In this document: piece by piece, positions 2,120 through 40,263 of the stretch | How the letters are laid out: the number at the start of each line of letters is the position of its first letter | How positions within the stretch are numbered: the stretch's first letter is position 1 | Origin: Snowella sp. | GTDB lineage: Bacteria > Cyanobacteriota > Cyanobacteriia > Cyanobacteriales > Microcystaceae | Reading direction: 5' to 3' | Length of the DNA stretch: 40,263 bases | Assembly (NCBI GenBank): GCA_003249095.1 | Contig: QBMS01000024.1 | Coordinates: 1 to 40,263 of the forward strand | Notes under the pieces: model-generated | Database searches by the model: none | Seen by the model: only the letters and a program-made list of their open reading frames with translations | What the model was told of the DNA's origin: nothing | Translations under genes and position numbers: made by a program

Positions 2120-2797
2120 ATGTTTATTTCCTTTAGCCTGACTTTTTTGATAGTGTTTTTCGCCTATTTATTGGGTTCGATTCCGACGGGATATTTAGCA
2201 GGCAAATGGTTAAAAGGCATCGATATTCGAGAAGTCGGTTCGGGTTCAACAGGTGCAACCAATGTTTTAAGGAATTTGGGGAAACCTGCCGCGATCGCCG
2301 TTTTGGGTATTGATGTCTTAAAAGGAATGGCCGCTGTCGGTTTAGTTAGGGGATTTTATGAACTTGCTTCGACTGAGCTAATCCCTAGCGAGTGGAAATA
2401 TTGGTTGATATTTTTCACGGGAATTGCCGCAATTTTAGGTCATAGTAAATCGATTTTTCTAAATTTTACGGGCGGAAAATCCGTTGCCACCAGTCTAGGG
2501 GTTTTAACGGTGATGAATCCCCTCGTGGCATTAGGAGCATTCGGCAGTTTTTTAGTTATGCTAGGAATCTCTCGCATTGTTTCTCTCAGTTCGATTACAG
2601 CCGCGATCGCGGTGACTATCTTAATGATTGCCCTAAATCAGCCTCTTCCCTACCTTATCTTTGGGATTCTTGGCGGAATTTATGTGATTGCGCGTCATTC
2701 TGGGAATATCCAACGTCTATTGGCAGGAAGCGAACCCAAACTTGGTCAAAAATCGCCTGAAACTCTCGAAACCGAATCAACTTTGCCAAATACTTGA
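2120..2797 (+). CDS. plsY: Glycerol-3-phosphate acyltransferase PlsY
   Basis: A 225-residue polytopic inner-membrane enzyme that transfers an acyl group from acyl-phosphate to glycerol-3-phosphate, the first acylation step of phospholipid and glycolipid synthesis. Family motifs are clear: LLGSIPTGYLAGKW near the N-terminus, REVGSGSTGATNVLRNLGK (about residues 37-55, the glycine-rich substrate loop), and GHSKSIFLNFTGGKSVATSLG (about 111-131). Several hydrophobic helices separate these loops. The hydrophilic C-terminal ~25 residues are an ordinary variable tail. Length is slightly above the ~200 residues typical of the family. It is preceded by the palindromic repeat spacer, so probably has its own promoter. 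Confidence 0.93.
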   Translation: MFISFSLTFLIVFFAYLLGSIPTGYLAGKWLKGIDIREVGSGSTGATNVLRNLGKPAAIAVLGIDVLKGMAAVGLVRGFYELASTELIPSEWKYWLIFFTGIAAILGHSKSIFLNFTGGKSVATSLGVLTVMNPLVALGAFGSFLVMLGISRIVSLSSITAAIAVTILMIALNQPLPYLIFGILGGIYVIARHSGNIQRLLAGSEPKLGQKSPETLETESTLPNT

Positions 2798-2906
2798 AAT
2801 AACGCTAATTCTAAAAAGACCGTCAATTAATTAGCTCTTTCACAAACCCAAAATCCCAAATTATATTAAGATACACTTACTTTCTAAAGAATTGAGGAAA
2901 AACCTT

Positions 2907-2999
2907 ATGTTTAAGAAATGGACAGTTGACGATTGGATGAATCATATTCTGCTGACAGGAACCCTTCTAGGATTAGCTTATATCTGGTTTGGACACTAA
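2907..2999 (+). CDS. Small single-pass membrane protein, 30 residues, unassigned
   Basis: ATG at 2907 opens a 30-residue frame ending in TAA at 2997-2999. GAGG lies about 10 nt upstream, a reasonable ribosome binding site. The protein begins MFKKWTVDDWMNH, an amphipathic, tryptophan-rich head. One hydrophobic helix (ILLTGTLLGLAYIWFG) and a terminal His follow. This charged/Trp head plus one helix resembles small subunits of thylakoid complexes (Pet, Psb, Ndh small subunits), but I cannot match it to a named one. It lies between plsY and another small membrane protein gene. The clean RBS, Trp content and hydrophobic pattern argue for a real gene. Confidence 0.55.
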   Translation: MFKKWTVDDWMNHILLTGTLLGLAYIWFGH

Positions 3000-3066
3000 T
3001 TTTAAAGCGTTCGTCTCCAGTTTCAAGCCAATACAAATATTATCAATAAATTTAATAAATACACTT

Positions 3067-3318
3067 ATGAATTTTAAGTTAGTCTTTGCCAGTGGTATTA
3101 TTTCTTCTCTAATTGGGGCAATGATTGGCTACGGCGTGGGTCAAATCGCCCTAACTCGTAATATTAGCCAAATTCGTTCCATTCATAGTACCTATTATCA
3201 AAATTTATATGGTCGTAATTTTATCTGGATTGGGGCAGGAGCCTTCTTGGTGATGGGGATGGGACAAGAATGCCTCAGACAACTCAAGCAAGAGCAAGAC
3301 CAAAATCATGAGCGATAA
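3067..3318 (+). CDS. Small two-helix membrane protein, unknown function
   Basis: An 83-residue protein when started at ATG 3067. An in-frame TTG start at 2989 would overlap the end of the 30-residue gene and add a non-hydrophobic extension, so I prefer the ATG. Residues ~4-24 form a glycine-rich hydrophobic helix (FASGIISSLIGAMIGYGVG), and a second helix, WIGAGAFLVMGMG, lies at ~51-66. The tail is charged (RQLKQEQDQNHER). The spaced glycines in both helices suggest close helix packing or oligomerisation. It lies 67 nt downstream of the 30-residue gene on the same strand and may share its transcript. I do not recognise the family. Confidence 0.55.
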   Translation: MNFKLVFASGIISSLIGAMIGYGVGQIALTRNISQIRSIHSTYYQNLYGRNFIWIGAGAFLVMGMGQECLRQLKQEQDQNHER

Positions 3319-3385
3319 AAATTTTTCGTGTGACAATCAAAATAAATATCATGAACAATTAATATCTAGAAAAACGTAAAATTGA

Positions 3386-4093
3386 TTATTGTGCCTCTAA
3401 TTTTTTCATATTAGGTTGCCACCAGTCATACCACTGACTCCAAATGGTTTCTAAGGTTTGATATTTTTCGGCTAATAAAGCTTCATCAACATTGACAGGA
3501 ATCGGAATCGAAATCGCAGTCCATAAACAATGGGCATCAACTAAATCATTGAGTCCAGCGAACCATCCGAGAGTTCTGGGAAAACTGAAGCCGTGTTCAT
3601 ATTTATTTTTTGTAAATTGCTCCGACGTTGCGGTACTTTTACCGACGGGGTTAATACAAGCACTGAGATAAGCTCGGTTATTGTAGGACGTTAACGCATA
3701 AAAACCAGTACGGTATTGTTCTTTAATCGTTAATACGGTGGAAGCGGGAGGGGCAATGCCATGAATCATCATGAGTCGGGCAATATTTCCTTCCGCATAA
3801 TTCTCATAATGAACTTGAATATCGACGGTGTTGTTATCTTGATTGCGATACTGATAAAGATGGCCAACCGCTTTTCCTTCTGATGCTTCAATAGACTTAC
3901 TGTTGACTAATTGCCAATCAGAAAGGGGGATCTTCGCCGGAAACTGAATCGCTTTAGCGGTGGTAGCGGCTATTTTATTTTTGTCCACCGTCGGCATCAG
4001 TAAAGCTCTGCCCGTTTCTACCAATATTCCCGCCAACAACAAGGCACAGACACCGATTCTGATGGTTTGCCAACGCTTAGTGGTTAAGGTCAT
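3386..4093 (-). CDS. Cyanoexosortase A system-associated (EpsI-like) protein
   Basis: A 235-residue protein starting at ATG 4093, preceded on its strand by AAGGA at good spacing. A longer reading would run back into the exosortase gene and is unlikely. An N-terminal membrane anchor (about residues 11-30, IRIGVCALLLAGILVETGRAL) precedes a periplasmic domain with IPLSDWQLVNS, the exchange pattern VDIQVHYENYAEGN, and the late segment HCLWTAISIPI. This fits the EpsI-like proteins encoded beside exosortases. The start lies 2 nt after the exosortase stop, so translation is probably coupled. The family role is support of exosortase-dependent sorting of PEP-CTERM-type proteins; the exact biochemical role is not established. 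Confidence 0.78.
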   Translation of the reverse strand: MTLTTKRWQTIRIGVCALLLAGILVETGRALLMPTVDKNKIAATTAKAIQFPAKIPLSDWQLVNSKSIEASEGKAVGHLYQYRNQDNNTVDIQVHYENYAEGNIARLMMIHGIAPPASTVLTIKEQYRTGFYALTSYNNRAYLSACINPVGKSTATSEQFTKNKYEHGFSFPRTLGWFAGLNDLVDAHCLWTAISIPIPVNVDEALLAEKYQTLETIWSQWYDWWQPNMKKLEAQ

Positions 4094-4095
4094 GG

Positions 4096-4941
4096 TTATT
4101 TTCCTTTTTCCATTGCCGATGAAGGATTTAGATGACGAACATAGACGAACCAACAAAATATTCCGAACATGAATACAGAAACAATGGCGAATGATAAGCT
4201 GCCATCGTCACTATGCCAGTATTCAAAGGCCTTGGGCTGCTGAACATCGACGAAAAATGCTAGTAATGCAACCCGAAACGCATTGACCATAAAACCGAGG
4301 GCAACGGCGATCGCAATACAAATCACTTTTTGCCAATGACTAATGGAAATTAAGAAAAAGAAAAGTATCGCAATACAGAGCATTAAAACAATACTTTCGA
4401 CTCCAGAGCAGGCACCATAAACTTCTACTCGTCCCGTCGGAAGGGCAATAACAACTCCCTGACGAACCACATCAAACCCCACGAACCACAGCATAAACGC
4501 TGATACTTTAGCGGTCAGTAGCGGTAAATCAAATGCATTGAGAGCAATCGTCACCAGTCGTAAAAATAAGAGTAAACTTAATAGAATTATTTCTTTCCCA
4601 TAGCTCTTTAAAGACTTAAATCCAGAGGCAATTAAAATCACTCCCACTCCAGCAATCAAGGGAAATAGACGCAAGGAAGAATCCGTCGTGGTCAGATTTC
4701 TAACAATCGTTAATACCACTAAAATCATTCCCACAAAAGTCGAGGCCGTATCACTCTCTAGGATTAGTTTTTTTCGCCTATCCCAGAGCAACGAACCAAT
4801 AGTCAACCAGATAAGAGTTGCTGTGCTAAATAAATTTTCGTTCTGGGATTTATCAATTAGGGTCAAATGCAGTACAACCAGACCGCAACTGAGGGCGACC
4901 AGCCAATATTCAATTTTCTGCAATGATTTTGTCCAGTCCAT
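4096..4941 (-). CDS. Cyanoexosortase A
   Basis: A 281-residue polytopic membrane protein from ATG 4941. GAGGAG sits close upstream of this ATG, which favours it over a TTG start at 5052. It has about eight hydrophobic helices. The exosortase/archaeosortase catalytic triad is visible: Cys178 in VYGACSGVES, Arg223 in MVNAFRVALL and His243 in YWHSDDGS. Exosortases are proposed transpeptidases that process C-terminal PEP-CTERM-like sorting signals at the cytoplasmic membrane. The downstream EpsI-like gene supports the cyanoexosortase A subtype. No obvious PEP-CTERM substrate is encoded in this window, so the targets must lie elsewhere. Confidence 0.85.
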   Translation of the reverse strand: MDWTKSLQKIEYWLVALSCGLVVLHLTLIDKSQNENLFSTATLIWLTIGSLLWDRRKKLILESDTASTFVGMILVVLTIVRNLTTTDSSLRLFPLIAGVGVILIASGFKSLKSYGKEIILLSLLLFLRLVTIALNAFDLPLLTAKVSAFMLWFVGFDVVRQGVVIALPTGRVEVYGACSGVESIVLMLCIAILFFFLISISHWQKVICIAIAVALGFMVNAFRVALLAFFVDVQQPKAFEYWHSDDGSLSFAIVSVFMFGIFCWFVYVRHLNPSSAMEKGK

Positions 4942-5269
4942 TTCTCCTCGTTTATTTTCAATCGGAAAGTTTACAAAAAGATTGGTTTTCAATACTAAAA
5001 CGTAATTGACTAACCCTAGTTGCGATCGCAAGACGGCAATGCGCGATCGCAAAAAATATTATTAGGTTCCTATTCTAATCGACAAATCCCCAAAATATAG
5101 ATTATCACCTGAATCAAAGCTAGTTGAATCCTGATAAGTGACCCAAGATAGAAAAATAGCCGTCGAAGAACTTCTAGGGATTTTGTCACCACCTCAATTT
5201 TAAAAAAATCCGAAAAAAAGAATATCCTCTGCCCCATCTGCTAGACTGGGAAAGTTGTATAAAATCGCA
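4942..5269. other. Divergent spacer between cyanoexosortase and rpsB
   Basis: This AT-rich stretch lies between the divergent exosortase and rpsB genes. I see no gene in it. It contains HIP1 octamers near its left end and should hold the promoters for both directions. No single promoter stands out strongly enough to place. Confidence 0.4.
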
Positions 5270-34639: not shown

Positions 34640-34905
34640 AGGAGCGTTTTTAGACTGGTACTGAGAATTATTGGCGATCGCGAGGTGTACTTTTGGCGAT
34701 CGCGTCTTTGTCGATTTTAACAGTGACTTGGAGTTATTCTTTGGGTTGGTGGGGAAGGTTAACAAAGATTTATTACTTAGCCCTCTATTTTAAGAAAAAT
34801 TTAAGAAAAATGAGATTTTGGATTCTGTGGAGCAATTTCTGTGCAAAGTTTAGAACAATCCATTATTATTAATTCTATGGATTATTTTTGAGGCGGTAGG
34901 TTTTG

Positions 34906-37900
34906 ATGGAAAGCAATAGGCTAGATCCCAAAGAGGCGTTAAAAAATAAGGCTTTTGCTAAAACTAAGCCAAATGCAGAGGATTTTGAGAAGTTTAAAGT
35001 TAATCTAAGCAAGCTGATTGACCAGATTAATGAGTCTGAATCGGAGGAGTTTCATAAAAATCTGGTTTCTGATTTCCTGAAAAATACCTATTACGGCCAA
35101 CGTCATTTCATCAATACAAAAGGGCGTTATGATCTCGTGATTCACAATGAGATGGATGCCAAAAGTTCGGTTCGGGTAATTTTAGAGACGAAGAAACCGA
35201 GCGGGAATAGTGCGGAGATGCCGAGGGTGAGTGATCTCAACAAAAAGGCTGTTCAACAGTTGCTTTTATATTTTTTACAAGAAAGATTTAATCATAGGAA
35301 TTTGGACATAAAATATTTAATTGTTACTAATATTTATGAGTGGTTTATTTTTGATGCTAAGATTTTTGAAAAATTATTTGCTGAAGATCGAGAGTTAGTT
35401 CGGAAATTCACTGATTTTGAAAAAGGGCAATTGAGCGGTGATAAAACCGTTTTTTTTCATAAGGAAATTGCGAAACCTGCGATCGCATCTGTCATTGATC
35501 AAATTAAGTTTACCTATTTTGATCTTCGAGATTATCAAAGCCAGGAATTAGGCAAGGGGCTTAAGCCCCTTGTTTCCGTGAGTAAGCCCCTTATTATTGA
35601 TAGAGATAAAGAGCAGAAACTAATCGATCTCTATAAATTATTTTCTCCTGGTTATTTATTGAAGTTACCGTTTGCGAATGATAGTAATTCTTTAAATAAG
35701 CCGTTTTATAATGAGTTACTTTATATTATCGGTTTGACGGAAACAAAAGAAGGCGGCAAGAAGTTGATCGGGCGGCCCAAGGAGGGCGATCGCCATAGGG
35801 GTTCTTTAATTGAAAATGCGATTCATCAGTTGGATAGTTTGGGTAAAATTTCTCAATTAAGGAAGCCTGAAGAGTTTGGGGAAAATGATCCAGACAAATT
35901 ATTTAATGTGGCGTTGCGGTTAGCGATTACTTGGATTAATCGAGTATTATTTCTGAAGTTATTGGAGGCGCAGTTAATTAAATATCATCGTGGGGATCAG
36001 GCTTTTTCATTTTTAAATTTAACGAAGGTGAAGGATTATCATGATCTGAATCGTTTATTTTTTGATGTTTTGGCAAGGGAGCAGGAGAAACGGGAGGCAA
36101 AGGTCGGGGCGATTTTTTCTAATGTGCCTTATTTGAATAGTTCGTTGTTTGAGCCGACGGATATTGAGCAACAAACGATTGTGATTAGTAATCTCAGAAA
36201 TGAGAGTTTACCGATTTTTGGGGCGACGGTTTTAGCGGATGGTCAGGGTAAACGGCGATCGGGTGAGTTGAATGCTTTGGAATATTTGTTTGCGTTTTTG
36301 GATGCCTATGATTTTAGTAGTGATGGGTCGGAAGATGATCAGGAAGATAGCGAGAAGTTAATTAATGCGTCAGTTTTGGGGTTGATTTTTGAGAAGATTA
36401 ATGGTTATAAGGACGGTTCTTTTTATACGCCTAGTTTTATTACGATGTATATGTGTCGGGAGACGATTCGGCGGGCGGTAGTACAAAAGTTTAATGAGGT
36501 TAAGGGTTGGAATTGTGAAAATCTGGATCAATTATATGAAAAAATTACGGATAAAAGAGAGGCAAATCTTATTATTAACAGTCTCAAAATTTGTGATCCT
36601 GCGGTGGGTTCGGGTCATTTTTTGGTTTCGGCTCTGAATGAGATGATTGCGATTAAGAGTGAGTTGAAAGTTTTAGGCGATCGCGCTGGTAAGTCGTTAA
36701 GGGATTATGAGGTTAGGGTGCAGAATGATAAGTTGGTTGTGCGGGATGATGAGGGTAAGTTATTTGAATATTTTCCGAAAAATAAAGAGAAACAGCGAGT
36801 ACAAGAGGCTCTTTTTCATGAAAAGCAAACGATTATTGAGGGTTGTTTGTTTGGGGTGGATATTAATCCTAATTCGGTAATTATTTGTCGGTTGCGGTTA
36901 TGGATTGAGCTTTTAAAAAATGCTTATTACAGGGCAGATGGAAATCTCGAAACGTTGCCGAATATTGATATTAATATTAAGTGTGGTAATTCGTTGATTA
37001 GTCGGTTTGCGTTGGATGTGGATGTTAAGCAGGTTTTAAAGAAGCATAACTTTACTATTGAGCAGTATCGGAATGCGGTGCAAACTTATCGTAATGCGGT
37101 GAGTAAGGAACAGAAGCAAGAAATGGAGCGTTTAATTAGGGATATTAAGGGTAGTTTTACGATGACGTTACAGGGGATTGATCCGAATAAGACTAAGCTC
37201 AGAAATTTGGAGGGTGAGCTTTATCAATTGGAAAATCAGGTTTTGTTATTTGAGGAGTCGGCTAAGGAGAAAAAGGCACGGGAGAAGAAGATTAATAAGT
37301 TGAATAATGAGATTGATAAGTTAAGGGCGGAGATTGAGGATATTGAAAGTGGGAAAATTTATGAGAATGCTTTGGAATGGCGGTTTGAATTTCCTGAAGT
37401 TTTGAATGATAAAGGTGATTTTATTGGATTTGATATTGTAATTGGAAACCCTCCTTATGGAGTTAAATTCAATGTTAAAGAAAAAGCACTTTTTTTGAGT
37501 CGATACAACTCAATAGATGATATTTATACAATTTTTATCGAACAAGGAGAAAAAATATCTAAAAAATCAGGATTTATATCATTAATTGTTCCAATATCTT
37601 GGTTAACAGGCGAATCATATTTTTCAACACGAAGTAACATTCTTGAAAATCTGAATCTTGATGTAGGAATAACTTTACCTTACAATATTTTTATAGATGC
37701 TTATGTAGATACTGGAATTTATTTATTTTCTAAAAATAAAAATACAGTTGCGTATGTATATGAATTTGGAATAAAAGAAAAAATAGATTACAGTATTCTT
37801 ACAAATCTAAAATTTTTAACGCTTTATAAATCTGAATGGTCTGATACTGAGAATTTGAAAATAGTTTTTAATCCAGTATCAAGATTACTTAACAACAAGA

Positions 37901-38550
37901 TAAATTCTTTTAATACCAAATTTGAAGATATTACAGATTCAGGAAGAGGAATTTTAGCTAATCCAGAGGATTATTCTAAACATCAATTAAATAATCAATA
38001 TGAGAATATTTTCATAGGAAAATTAGATAGATACTATATTGACAATAAAGACTTTCAATGTATTAAATATGGTGAAAATTTAAGAGAAAAACCTGCTTCA
38101 TTTGATTTTTTTATGGGTGAGAGAATTTTAGTAAGAAGAATTGTCAATAGACAACTCCGAATTATGGCAACGCTTACAGATGAAAGGTTTGTAACTAAAA
38201 AAGACATTTATACTTTTAAGTCTAATAACAAAAATTTTCCTATAAAATATTTACTGGCTGTTATTAATTCAACACTTATTTCCTTTATAAAAACTACAGG
38301 TTCAACATCAGCTAAGAAAGATGATTTTACACAACTTACTTTAAATGATATAAGACAATTAAGAATTCCTGAAGTCAATTCAAGACAGATAAAAAGTTTT
38401 GAAAATTTAGTTGATCAAATTCTCACAGCTAAAAAATTCGATCCAAAAGCTGATACAACCGCCTTAGAAAAAGCGATCGATCAACTCGTTTATCAACTTT
38501 ATGGATTAACAGAAGAAGAGATTAAAATAGTAGAAGGAGAAAAAAAATAA
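34906..38550 (+). CDS. Single-chain restriction-modification enzyme (Type IIG-like, Eco57I-class)
   Basis: A 1214-residue protein from ATG 34906, with an in-frame TTG one codon upstream. The N-terminal PD-(D/E)xK nuclease has Asp76 in GRYDLVIHN and Glu94-Thr-Lys96 in VILETKKPSG. A long helical spacer follows. The methyltransferase has motif I DPAVGSGHF (Asp564-Phe572) and motif IV NPPYG (Asn848-Tyr851), an N6-adenine methylase signature. A coiled-coil insert lies at ~745-810. The C-terminal ~350 residues (from about 37,430) form the target-recognition and tail region, clearly more AT-rich than the front. The likely role is phage and plasmid restriction with self-methylation. No separate methylase or specificity gene is seen. 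Confidence 0.9.
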   Translation: MESNRLDPKEALKNKAFAKTKPNAEDFEKFKVNLSKLIDQINESESEEFHKNLVSDFLKNTYYGQRHFINTKGRYDLVIHNEMDAKSSVRVILETKKPSGNSAEMPRVSDLNKKAVQQLLLYFLQERFNHRNLDIKYLIVTNIYEWFIFDAKIFEKLFAEDRELVRKFTDFEKGQLSGDKTVFFHKEIAKPAIASVIDQIKFTYFDLRDYQSQELGKGLKPLVSVSKPLIIDRDKEQKLIDLYKLFSPGYLLKLPFANDSNSLNKPFYNELLYIIGLTETKEGGKKLIGRPKEGDRHRGSLIENAIHQLDSLGKISQLRKPEEFGENDPDKLFNVALRLAITWINRVLFLKLLEAQLIKYHRGDQAFSFLNLTKVKDYHDLNRLFFDVLAREQEKREAKVGAIFSNVPYLNSSLFEPTDIEQQTIVISNLRNESLPIFGATVLADGQGKRRSGELNALEYLFAFLDAYDFSSDGSEDDQEDSEKLINASVLGLIFEKINGYKDGSFYTPSFITMYMCRETIRRAVVQKFNEVKGWNCENLDQLYEKITDKREANLIINSLKICDPAVGSGHFLVSALNEMIAIKSELKVLGDRAGKSLRDYEVRVQNDKLVVRDDEGKLFEYFPKNKEKQRVQEALFHEKQTIIEGCLFGVDINPNSVIICRLRLWIELLKNAYYRADGNLETLPNIDINIKCGNSLISRFALDVDVKQVLKKHNFTIEQYRNAVQTYRNAVSKEQKQEMERLIRDIKGSFTMTLQGIDPNKTKLRNLEGELYQLENQVLLFEESAKEKKAREKKINKLNNEIDKLRAEIEDIESGKIYENALEWRFEFPEVLNDKGDFIGFDIVIGNPPYGVKFNVKEKALFLSRYNSIDDIYTIFIEQGEKISKKSGFISLIVPISWLTGESYFSTRSNILENLNLDVGITLPYNIFIDAYVDTGIYLFSKNKNTVAYVYEFGIKEKIDYSILTNLKFLTLYKSEWSDTENLKIVFNPVSRLLNNKINSFNTKFEDITDSGRGILANPEDYSKHQLNNQYENIFIGKLDRYYIDNKDFQCIKYGENLREKPASFDFFMGERILVRRIVNRQLRIMATLTDERFVTKKDIYTFKSNNKNFPIKYLLAVINSTLISFIKTTGSTSAKKDDFTQLTLNDIRQLRIPEVNSRQIKSFENLVDQILTAKKFDPKADTTALEKAIDQLVYQLYGLTEEEIKIVEGEKK
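35553..35592 (+). repeat. Palindromic element inside the restriction-modification gene
   Basis: CAAGGGGCTTAAGCCCCTTG (35553-35572) is a perfect 20-nt palindrome in the coding frame, and its half AAGCCCCTT recurs at 35584-35592. It encodes the local motif GLKPL and KPLI (about residues 216-229), a repeat-like KPL pair. Its GC-rich block stands out in an AT-rich gene, which suggests a small palindromic insertion that kept the frame open. Confidence 0.5.
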
Positions 38551-38628
38551 CCCCAAAATTAGTGATAAATATTTGAAAGATAATTATTGACTATTTTGAT
38601 TAATTGCGATCAGATTGCATTTTTAAAC

Positions 38629-38634
38629 TATAAT
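38629..38634 (+). promoter_or_regulatory. Candidate -10 box for the toxin-antitoxin operon
   Basis: TATAAT lies 32 nt before the antitoxin ATG in a very AT-rich spacer of 115 nt. No good -35 hexamer is visible at 17 nt spacing, so this is only a candidate. Confidence 0.35.
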
Positions 38635-38665
38635 TTAAAAATATAAACCTACTGCACAAAATAAA

Positions 38666-38929
38666 ATGTTATCCATTAATCTAGATCGAGAAACAGAAAG
38701 CTACTTAGCGGAAATAATTGCCCAAGAGAATACTAGCTCAGAAGAAATCTTAAAAAAGCTAATTTATCAACATTGGCAAACTCTAAAACCCCGCCAAACC
38801 CTAGCCCAAAGACGAGGAAACCCTCCTAAACATTTATTACAAAATGCAGCTTCTGATACATCATTACGAGAAAATCGTAAAAAGATTGTTTCAGAATATA
38901 TCCAAAACCGCCACCAGAAACATAATTAA
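38666..38929 (+). CDS. VapB-type antitoxin
   Basis: An 87-residue small protein. The first ~45 residues (MLSINLDRETESYLAEIIAQ through SSEEILKKLIYQHW) look like a ribbon-helix-helix DNA-binding unit, and the C-terminal half (GNPPKHLLQNAASDTSLREN) is a likely toxin-wrapping tail. The TAA stop shares its last base with the toxin ATG (38929), the typical translationally coupled antitoxin-toxin order. In such pairs the antitoxin represses its own operon and blocks the PIN toxin. The exact family of the antitoxin is not fixed by sequence. Confidence 0.75.
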   Translation: MLSINLDRETESYLAEIIAQENTSSEEILKKLIYQHWQTLKPRQTLAQRRGNPPKHLLQNAASDTSLRENRKKIVSEYIQNRHQKHN

Positions 38930-39357
38930 TGAAAGACTATCCCCCAATTATTTTGACAGATAGTAGTATTTTATTTGCCTACTATAGTCAACAAGATAAT
39001 TATCATAAATTAGTTTGTAACTTCTTTGAACAATGTTCAAGTGAACTAATTACTACAACAGCTTGTATTACCGAAGTAATGTACCTTTTGAATAGAGATT
39101 ATCGAACACAAAATGAATTTCTCCAAGATCTAGCTCAAAAGCTTTATCGATCTATTCCCCTAATATCAGAAGATTTTATCCGCATTAAAGAATTAAATGA
39201 ACAATATGCTGATTTACCAGGTGATTTTGCTGATTTATCTTTAATCGCTATCTCTGAAAGACTCAATATTTCTGCAATAGTCACATTAGATGGTGATTTT
39301 GATATTTACCGACGTTATCGAAAACAACCTTTTGCAAGAGTCTATTTAGATCCATAA
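38929..39357 (+). CDS. PIN-domain toxin, VapC-type ribonuclease
   Basis: A 142-residue PIN domain with the expected acidic residues: Asp11 in IILTDSSILFAYY, Glu49 in ACITEVMYLLN, Asp99/Asp102 in PGDFADLSLIA and Asp123 in VTLDGDFDIYR. PIN toxins are metal-dependent endoribonucleases that cut tRNA or rRNA when free of antitoxin. Length is normal. It starts on the last base of the antitoxin stop codon, so the two are coupled. All catalytic positions are intact, so the toxin is probably functional. Confidence 0.88.
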   Translation: MKDYPPIILTDSSILFAYYSQQDNYHKLVCNFFEQCSSELITTTACITEVMYLLNRDYRTQNEFLQDLAQKLYRSIPLISEDFIRIKELNEQYADLPGDFADLSLIAISERLNISAIVTLDGDFDIYRRYRKQPFARVYLDP

Positions 39358-39407
39358 AACTGAGAAGCAATAGTTACAATAAATATCATTTCAGAAAAAC
39401 CCCGATA

Positions 39408-39701
39408 ATGAGAATCATCGCTCGAAGTACACTAAGAGAGTATTGGCAAAAACATCCTGATACAGAGCAACCTCTAAAAGCATGGTTTGATGATACATCT
39501 CGTGCCAACTGGAAAACTCCATCAGAAATCAGAGACAATTATGCAAATGCAAGTATTATTGCGAATAATCGCGTAGTTTTTAACATTAAAGGGAATAATC
39601 ATCGCCTAATTGTTCAGATACGTTACGATATTAGTATTGTTTTTATTCGCTTTATCGGGACTCATCAAGAATACGATAAAATAGATGCAACAACTGTTTA
39701 A
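39408..39701 (+). CDS. HigB-type mRNA interferase toxin
   Basis: A 97-residue protein of the HigB toxin family. It begins MRIIARSTLREYWQKHPDTE, continues FDDTSRANWKTPSEIRDNYA and ends with the family's strand and tail (VFNIKGNNHRLIVQIRYD, VFIRFIGTHQEYDKIDATTV). HigB toxins cut mRNA at the ribosome. The toxin precedes its partner, as in higBA operons (reverse of vapBC). It lies 50 nt after the PIN toxin. Sequence looks complete. Confidence 0.88.
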   Translation: MRIIARSTLREYWQKHPDTEQPLKAWFDDTSRANWKTPSEIRDNYANASIIANNRVVFNIKGNNHRLIVQIRYDISIVFIRFIGTHQEYDKIDATTV

Positions 39702-39715
39702 GGAGATTTAATTTT

Positions 39716-40015
39716 ATGAATTTAAAACCAATTAAAAACGAAAAAGATTATCAATTAGCAATCAAAGAAATTGAACGATTATTTGATATTCAAAATAATA
39801 CAGAGGAATTAGAAAAATTAGACATTTTAACAACCTTGGTGGAAGCTTATGAAAAAGACAACTATCCGATTGAACCACCATCTCCTATCGCCTCGATTTT
39901 ATATTATTTAGAAAGTCGTAATCAAGGAATTTCTGTATTTATCGAAAATTTAAAATGTCAGGGAGTTAGTGAAGAAATTATTAATACGGCATTAAATGCA
40001 ATGACTCAATCGTAA
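39716..40015 (+). CDS. HigA-like partner of HigB without an obvious helix-turn-helix
   Basis: A 99-residue protein starting 14 nt after higB, preceded by AAGGAG, so clearly coupled. The N-terminal half (LKPIKNEKDYQLAIKEIERL, then LDILTTLVEAYEKDNYPIEP) matches the N-terminal part of HigA-family antitoxins of this HigB type. Those antitoxins normally continue into a helix-turn-helix with a KDL-type turn after a segment such as PIxAI. Here PIASILYYLESRNQGISVFI leads instead into a short helix pair and ends. No neighbouring frame restores a helix-turn-helix. It may still neutralise the toxin but might not bind DNA in the usual way. Confidence 0.72.
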   Translation: MNLKPIKNEKDYQLAIKEIERLFDIQNNTEELEKLDILTTLVEAYEKDNYPIEPPSPIASILYYLESRNQGISVFIENLKCQGVSEEIINTALNAMTQS

Positions 40016-40021
40016 ATTTAA

Positions 40022-40204
40022 AAAGACGAGCTGAAAATTATTATTGCTCAAAAATCCGATCCAAAAGCTGATACAACCACCTTAGAAAAAGAAATCGATC
40101 AACTAGTTTACAAACTTTATAACCTCATCCATAAAGAAATAAAAATCATCCACCCCGAATTTAACCTAACCGAACAAGAATATCAAGCAATTACAATAGA
40201 ATAA
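40022..40204 (+). pseudogene. Decayed C-terminal copy of a restriction-modification enzyme
   Basis: An open stretch with no start codon follows an in-frame stop at 40019-40021 and ends at TAA 40202-40204. It reads AQKSDPKADTTTLEKEIDQL and VYKLYNLIHKEIKII. This matches the end of the 34906-38550 enzyme (KKFDPKADTTALEKAIDQLV, YQLYGLTEEEIKIV). At DNA level, 40046-40120 matches 38428-38502 in 67 of 75 positions by eye, with no gaps. It then continues to a different tail (HPEFNLTEQEYQAITIE), so it likely came from a related, not identical, enzyme gene. Confidence 0.75.
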
Positions 40205-40263
40205 AACCTTGGCACTGGTGTAGTTTGATTAAAGGCGAAAAAAGGTATGGTGTAAGGCTTAGA

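Follow-up and report, generated by a model that had tools for sequence, protein, structure and literature searches.

Toxin-antitoxin (TA) modules are known as integron cassettes, and staphylococcal cassette chromosome (SCC) elements are known to insert at the 3' end of rlmH. Insertion with long target duplication was reportedly described for restriction-modification (RM) genes by Nobusato et al. in 2000. For the pneumococcal tvr locus, which encodes the type I RM system SpnIV, the published account describes tail end repeats of about 70 bp and a direct-repeat-guided shuffling through circles, in which the hsdS specificity genes are rearranged by the recombinase TvrR encoded at the locus and the shuffling is restrained by TA homologues (PMC6265443). 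In Microcystis aeruginosa PCC 7806, the TA module MaOC1 is fenced by two direct repeats of 152 bp (PMC7935541). The clustering of TA with RM genes and the movement of TA modules without transposase or integrase are open questions, for which the arrays described here offer a concrete, testable route. The locus under study lies in a stretch of 40,263 nt from Snowella sp. (Microcystaceae; assembly GCA_003249095.1, contig QBMS01000024.1, positions 1 to 40,263), referred to below as the window, and contains an RM gene whose 3' end, here called the tail, is repeated behind a group of predicted TA genes. Comparison with relatives makes it probable that this locus belongs, as a short example, to a type of array in which exchangeable TA cassettes stand on a type IIG-like RM gene, with homologous recombination as the motor; confidence in this overall reading is lower than in the array model itself because the motor is unproven.

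The window locus

The RM gene (34903..38550, plus strand, 1215 aa) is type IIG-like, with matches to the Pfam families DUF7149, DUF7814, Eco57I and TaqI_C. An Eco57I-type methylase (PF07669, E = 2.1e-28) and a TaqI_C specificity domain (PF12950, E = 5.3e-11) are joined in a single polypeptide, and a match to PD-(D/E)XK_9 (PDDEXK_9) was weak and under the cut-off (E = 0.0062). The end of this gene, tail 1, comprises a left half and core with a conserved LE-x-x-IDxLVYxLY segment (38417..38502, plus strand) and a right half (38503..38550, plus strand) that was classed by DNA profile as the short, S-type end, GLTEEEIKIVEGEKK, followed by the stop. A direct repeat of 86 nt was found between 38417-38502 and 40035-40120 (86% identity, spacing 1618 bp), copy 1 being the 3' end of the RM gene. 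The 75-bp repeat reported in the initial annotation was borne out within it, 38428-38502 and 40046-40120 differing by 8 mismatches (89%, by eye) at the spacing of 1618. When the window's own genome was searched with 38417-38550, two places only were returned, the second copy with E = 1.2e-22. Copy 2 belongs to tail 2 (40022..40204, plus strand), an orphan that by DNA profile carries the long, L-type right end finishing in IIHPEFNLTEQEYQAITIE and a stop. The frame of tail 2 has an in-frame stop just upstream (40019-40021), no ATG, and its own stop TAA at 40202-40204.

The genes between the tails are all on the plus strand. The first (38666..38929, 87 aa), whose product had no Pfam or NCBIfam match, is by position only a putative antitoxin, and its stop overlaps the start of a VapC-like PIN-domain toxin of 142 aa (38929..39357; PF01850, E = 9.4e-11). 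Next comes a HigB toxin of 97 aa (39408..39701; HigB_toxin PF09907, E = 4.2e-32), followed by a putative HigB antitoxin of 99 aa (39716..40015), again named from position only; for the latter product no family was above the cut-off and a match to Antiterm lay below it (E = 0.098). The two pairs are predicted to be type II TA modules, and the earlier statement that only TA genes lie between the repeat copies is upheld in this form, with two toxins identified by family match and two antitoxins inferred from position. The window thus offers one interval (1501 bp), in which two TA modules stand between an RM gene with an S-type end and an L-type orphan tail; it is listed as locus W in the comparisons below.

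Both end types are found on related RM genes, as is evident from the 16 full-frame RM genes of one genus (g6), 11 with an L-type and 5 with an S-like end. Three stretches of the window RM gene are 71-80% identical at the DNA level to the RM gene that heads a nine-tail array in Pseudanabaena sp. FACHB-1998 (L188, NZ_JACJQA010000022.1). The latter gene bears an L-type end, as does tail 2, and its tail aligns to 40035-40209 at 77% over 175 bp. Given this relationship between the two RM genes and the alignment of the L188 tail with tail 2, the latter may represent the earlier end of the lineage to which the window RM gene belongs, and tail 1 a later one.

Arrays in relatives and the cassette unit

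A tail profile was applied to the window region and to 34 further loci, and orphan tails were found behind RM genes in several relatives, one locus (L102) having five tails. In surveys at the level of the order and of the phylum, at least 107 of 388 and 52 of 194 genomes, respectively, had tail matches, many of them being the ends of long RM frames. From named genomes, the best 80 of at least 495 candidate loci were examined, of which 17 had a second tail on the same strand, 3 had one on the opposite strand and 60 had one tail or none. Among the 17, the spacing was 300 bp or less in four (L142, L160, L184, L185), and three resembled a second RM copy or remnant (L140, L156, L186); inter-tail open reading frames (ORFs) were searched against Pfam for L152, L163, L168, L183, L188, L195 and L209, with L141, L158 and L194 left out. 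In L188, nine tails separate TA modules. Tail matches were present in 20 of the 38 genomes of the family of G517, 17 of them with tails in series on one contig, and the genus that supplied most arrays (g169) is probably Pseudanabaena. The arrays in relatives begin with an RM gene or its remnant, followed by up to eight further copies of its last ~25-60 codons.

For a detailed comparison, 24 loci were scanned with L- and S-type DNA profiles: 20 from the family of G517, L127 (from G517 itself), L118, L227 and W. Two or more tails were present in 22 of these (L243 has none and L249 one), which gave 70 intervals; omission of W and L227 left a set of 20 arrays with 68 intervals from 16 genomes. Before the first tail, matches to the RM body extended over several hundred positions in 11 of the 22 loci, and the other loci had an N-terminal or tail remnant only, or nothing; the RM gene therefore looks like an anchor that has often decayed. 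From its sequence, the window RM gene is the predicted anchor of its own array.

The initial annotation had offered, as one origin, two related RM genes of which one was deleted to its tail. Extended to the general case, in which several RM genes stood in tandem with TA modules in the gaps and only the first escaped decay to a tail, this explanation is very improbable. Tandem RM copies do exist (L108, L109, L128), and RM genes deleted in the middle keep their N-terminus and tail (L110, L114, L127; L235, L237, L242). Against this, a match to the RM profile was found in none of the 70 inter-tail intervals (E 0.01, filters off), for which reason decay of tandem RM genes was rejected as the general origin and that part of the earlier proposal is unsupported in this general form, although it may hold for the window alone. 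The closeness of the last stop codon to the following tail, and the linkage of right halves to modules described below, also speak against it, the latter being unpredicted by decay.

The content of the intervals was examined in the 20-array set, and TA enrichment was judged by its 68 intervals alone. Two ORFs were present in 57 intervals, one in 9 and three in 2; the median interval length was 650 bp and the stop of the last ORF lay at a median of 5 bp from the next tail. The 137 inter-tail ORFs included 23 families with at least two members, forming about ten modules, most of them TA, and a toxin-type Pfam family, judged by the family representative, occurred in 57 of the 68 intervals. The inter-tail Pfam matches included PIN, RelE, YafQ, PemK/MazF, HicA and HicB-like, BrnT and ParE, in addition to nucleotidyltransferase with HEPN, DUF433 with DUF5615, DUF6883 with DUF4926, DUF2283 and RHH; several small partner ORFs between tails had no Pfam match. 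At L227 of genus g6, a DUF433 antitoxin carries a RelB-like N-terminus as a fusion (MKAVKAMATINEQGQ...), and L188 has both of these apart. Cassette edges, to judge from these sequences, seem to recombine into chimeric antitoxins.

The association between tails and modules was tested on the 65 of 70 intervals in which the tail right half was intact and the module typed; W, L227 and three intervals with a truncated right half (L240.4, L241.1, L245.1) were dropped. Modules A-D stood behind an S-type tail in 25 of 25 cases and modules E-J behind an L-type tail in 40 of 40. The mutual information between right-half type and downstream module was reached by none of 10,000 shuffles. As a control, the tail downstream of each module was used (54 intervals), and no link was found, 7019 of 10,000 shuffles reaching the observed value. 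The rule also holds in first intervals, where the tail is the C-terminus of the RM gene itself. Each module type had 4-7 different predecessors (RM gene or first position counted as one), and of 48 adjacencies 40 were distinct, with one triple that recurs. When identity was examined by position in 73 tails (those with the anchor motif), it was linked to the predecessor left of about -40, to the successor right of +5 and to neither between these points. Since the right-half type is tied to the module behind it in 65 of 65 intervals regardless of the predecessor, the cassette consists of a tail right half, a TA module and a tail left half, in that order. The exchange presumably falls within the ~50-bp core common to all tails.

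The ends of the arrays agree with this unit. The right half was absent from 13 of the 22 last tails (L232, L233, L236, L238-L242, L245, L247, L250, L251 and L118), which kept the left half as a profile match, and from 3 of the 70 other tails; such a loss would be expected if the right half goes with the module that follows it. The last tail of L233 still has its extreme right end, located behind a deletion. The DNA beyond the truncated last tails differs between arrays, except in L239 and L251.

Tails might instead be maintained because they serve a different purpose, for example in translational coupling or in expressing the TA operon that follows, with the arrangement as a by-product. The first start codon follows the tail at a median distance of 40 bp (quartiles 8 and 56), as might suit such a role, but some tails have in-frame stops (L118, L102), the window orphan is without a start codon, and last tails without a following module exist. 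This explanation was accordingly given little credence.

The array model itself is regarded as nearly certain, and membership of the window in the array family, assessed from its sequence, as very likely. Several observations weigh against one or the other. The window interval has two TA modules without a tail between them, neither module belongs to the typed module pool, and the right end of the locus is cut by the end of the contig. One genus supplied 18 of the 20 arrays, and these lack independence. Eleven of the 68 intervals are without a toxin-type family, six of these having a lone antitoxin-like ORF and five having family F8, which is without a family assignment and stands twice beside a nucleotidyltransferase-like ORF. 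The cargo outside the cyanobacteria is more mixed, with HNH, DUF3800 and unknown proteins among the few genes tested. L240.4, L241.1 and L245.1 (modules D, B and B) were typed as L on their left part alone and at face value break the rule; the cut-off for an intact right half was fixed after the tail typing had been viewed, and the S/L grouping was noticed before testing, although the mutual-information test needs no grouping. The truncated last tails are unlike what simple insertion into an intact tail predicts, and the last tail of L235 is complete, yet no module is seen behind it. Finally, the core (60 cores from tails with the anchor motif) had an identity of 0.776 within arrays, as against 0.745 for pairs with nothing in common, a difference that 43 of 5000 shuffles reached. 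Homogenisation of the core within arrays was accordingly put down as weak, and recombination within arrays is not strongly shown, because the excess of core similarity within arrays is slight.

The contig stops at 40263 with a multicopy repeat of about 55 bp (40209..40263, no strand assigned), which lies outside the array and hides its right end. The same sequence ends seven other contigs of the window's genome (G000). It was considered as a possible insertion sequence; diverged copies were seen in genome G004, one of them beside ordinary-looking ORFs.

Movement of cassettes and its motor

The initial annotation had proposed, as a second possibility, that recombination at the tails moves cassettes, and this is strongly supported by the shuffled cassettes and the 65 of 65 linkage in relatives. 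The order of the modules varied widely, and the same ones were found in several genomes and at several chromosomal positions, with cassettes common to distant cyanobacteria; those of L188, for example, recur in other orders in L118, L127 and the g6 island described below. In L188, an 806-bp block comprising RelBE and parts of tails is duplicated at 96%, with both ends inside tails, and L122 and L112 have 412 bp in common at 95%, starting inside a tail. Among the 17 YafQ matches in 38 genomes, the 6 at 89% identity or more were all in arrays; the other 11, at 56-79% identity, were located where no tail is listed.

The comparison for alternative cassettes and empty sites was made in genera other than that of the window, and the outcome was as the initial annotation had anticipated for a mobile arrangement: arrays differ between relatives and empty sites occur. 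The core gene CIA30, located downstream of the island site, was present in 11 of 12 g6 genomes. An island of RM gene plus array stands beside it in three of the 11 and is absent from the other 8, in seven of which the flanks are 251-368 bp apart; genome G050 has ~3.9 kb of other DNA there. To the left and right of the RM specificity region, alignment of the three islands gives 94-98% identity, and the islands show insertions and deletions in the cassette part. The specificity regions themselves (L227 7406-8574, L228 7149-8247, L229 2490-3492) could not be aligned in any of the three pairs; on the right, the sequences match again from the tail onwards. Ahead of the RM gene, L227 has a family of ~200-bp repeats that are 81-98% alike (2706-4968), and L228 has short copies of the RM N-terminus.

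The recurrence of cassettes bears on a further explanation, in which each TA module was inserted separately into the RM end with a long target duplication that copied the resident tail, without any exchange of cassettes. In its favour, most orphan tails have an intact right side and a cut left side, the pattern that a duplicated target would leave, and tandem tails without cargo exist in L185 and L160. Against it, modules keep the same tail halves while their order, genome and site change, and the explanation was considered improbable, even if such insertion may be a route by which new cassettes are born.

Under the preferred model of exchange at the tails, cassettes would enter and move by crossover inside the ~50-bp core that the tails share, most likely by ordinary homologous recombination. 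A cassette would start with an in-frame sequence able to serve as the full 3' end of the RM gene, and insertion beside that gene would exchange its last ~15-30 residues without breaking it. The RM gene would survive each insertion because every cassette restores its end. For the window, this process would account for an RM gene with an S-type end, whose right half the adjoining cassette would have brought, a two-module interval and a displaced L-type tail downstream. We infer homologous recombination in the core to be the likeliest motor; it is the simplest, since the crossover falls in a zone and not at a point and since no linked recombinase of three families was found in 12 array-bearing genomes. 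A strict single crossover point was considered and rejected: the motif TTAGARARAG marks a common left boundary in L102, L105 and g6, which had suggested site-specific cutting, and in the larger set the left boundaries vary by cassette. At several cassette-tail junctions and truncation points in L188, L127, L118, L236, L238 and L250, the sequence GCGATCGC was noted by eye. It is known as the cyanobacterial HIP1 octamer and may be a weak spot for joining.

The main rival is a site-specific recombinase encoded elsewhere that acts on the tails as attachment sites, as the integrase does on attC and TvrR on the tail end repeats. The anatomy is integron-like, action in trans needs no adjacent gene, and some tyrosine recombinase was present in every one of 12 array-bearing genomes. 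A search of these 12 genomes for three recombinase families turned up neither an integron integrase nor a tyrosine recombinase or resolvase close to the arrays. The IntI model TIGR02249 was above the cut-off in 4 of the 12, on other contigs or, in G540 as the sole case on the array contig, ~0.49 Mb from the array; none was above the cut-off in G000, G530, G542, G527, G544, G052, G054 and G058, of which some contigs are short. The nearest tyrosine recombinases on the same contig as an array were ~105 kb (G540) and ~131 kb (G527) away, and in 8 of the 12 genomes none was on the array contig. The resolvase model had no match in 5 of the 12. Thus, neither a tyrosine recombinase nor a resolvase was found within ~100 kb of the arrays in the 12 genomes as far as the contigs reach, the fragmented assemblies limiting the distance searched. 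Single-strand folding was predicted for 8 strands (both strands of the two window tails and the bottom strand of three L188 tails and one L102 tail), and no attC-like hairpin was found, with z from -1.92 to +0.79; the lowest value, that of the tail 1 bottom strand, was matched by 6 of 200 shuffles. These results, and the shift of linkage across ~45 bp with no single crossover point visible, make a recombinase in trans unlikely, less so than the other rivals.

Some further loci touch on the spread of tails and cassettes. At L122 (5051-5870, genome G325), a TA cassette was seen between two tails near a Mob-type relaxase gene, and no RM body was found at this locus, a sequence arrangement hinting at transfer of a lone cassette. 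When a plasmid collection was searched by tblastn with tail 2, a single distant match was obtained, on a Parabacteroides plasmid under an N-6 DNA methylase gene. Tails without cargo stand in tandem in L185 (5990-6480, Chloroflexi; 123-bp units) and L160 (5990-6500, Bacteroidetes; ~295-bp units) and are possibly array seeds or empty forms. L168 (6140-9085, a Bacteroidetes metagenome-assembled genome) has an RM gene and, behind it, two 251-aa genes that look alike and immediately follow a tail each; an HNH gene separates them, and this cargo is not an obvious TA module. BrnT and ParE were among the tested cargo in Nitrospirota. Tails repeated in Bacteroidota, Chloroflexota and Nitrospirota suggest that the same device, or a convergent one, exists beyond the cyanobacteria.

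Comparison with described systems

No description of TA arrays on RM tails was found among the papers listed from the open-licence PMC literature, as judged by titles and the starts of abstracts, and the array kind was rated as new, if repeat-bounded cassette arrays are not all counted as one kind. More broadly, the balance leans slightly towards a view in which type IIG-like RM genes serve as docking sites and the whole resembles an integron that does without a recombinase: cassettes are gained, lost and reordered by homologous recombination at a shared end, the C-terminus is rewritten with each insertion and addiction modules are stacked behind. A shared gene end used as exchange site would be a route for TA movement, and arrays of up to eight modules in one genus are natural replicates in which cassette gain and loss can be measured. 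The linkage implies that part of the C-terminus of a restriction enzyme is inherited with the toxin gene behind it and not with the enzyme.

MaOC1 is a TA module with repeats on both sides from the same phylum as the window, but its repeats, which contain inverted repeats, are situated outside the adjacent gene, and the excerpted account mentions neither an RM gene nor an array (PMC7935541). The tvr locus is likewise an RM locus with tail repeats and TA homologues inside (PMC6265443). It differs in that the cassettes here are TA modules on a type IIG-like RM gene, with no linked recombinase found. The units shuffled at tvr and ivr loci are specificity domains, whereas the inter-tail ORFs belong mostly to TA families; the RM specificity region does vary between strains at one site, but outside the array.

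Insertion with long target duplication also involves mobile genes bounded by direct repeats of tens to hundreds of bp, but it is not known to form an array, to draw on an exchangeable pool or to be tied to the 3' end of one gene. SCC elements share the restoration of the gene end on insertion and differ in being large and in having ccr recombinases and short site repeats. Integron cassette arrays are alike in that small gene units stand in series with one copy of the exchange repeat per unit, and an array of exchangeable cassettes with one recombination site each was found in the relatives. Membership among the integrons was rejected, as neither an adjacent IntI in the 12 genomes nor an attC-like fold in the 8 strands was found. 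In contrast to integrons, which have a linked integrase and attC-like folds, the repeat here is the coding 3' end of an RM gene, and the platform is the RM gene itself.

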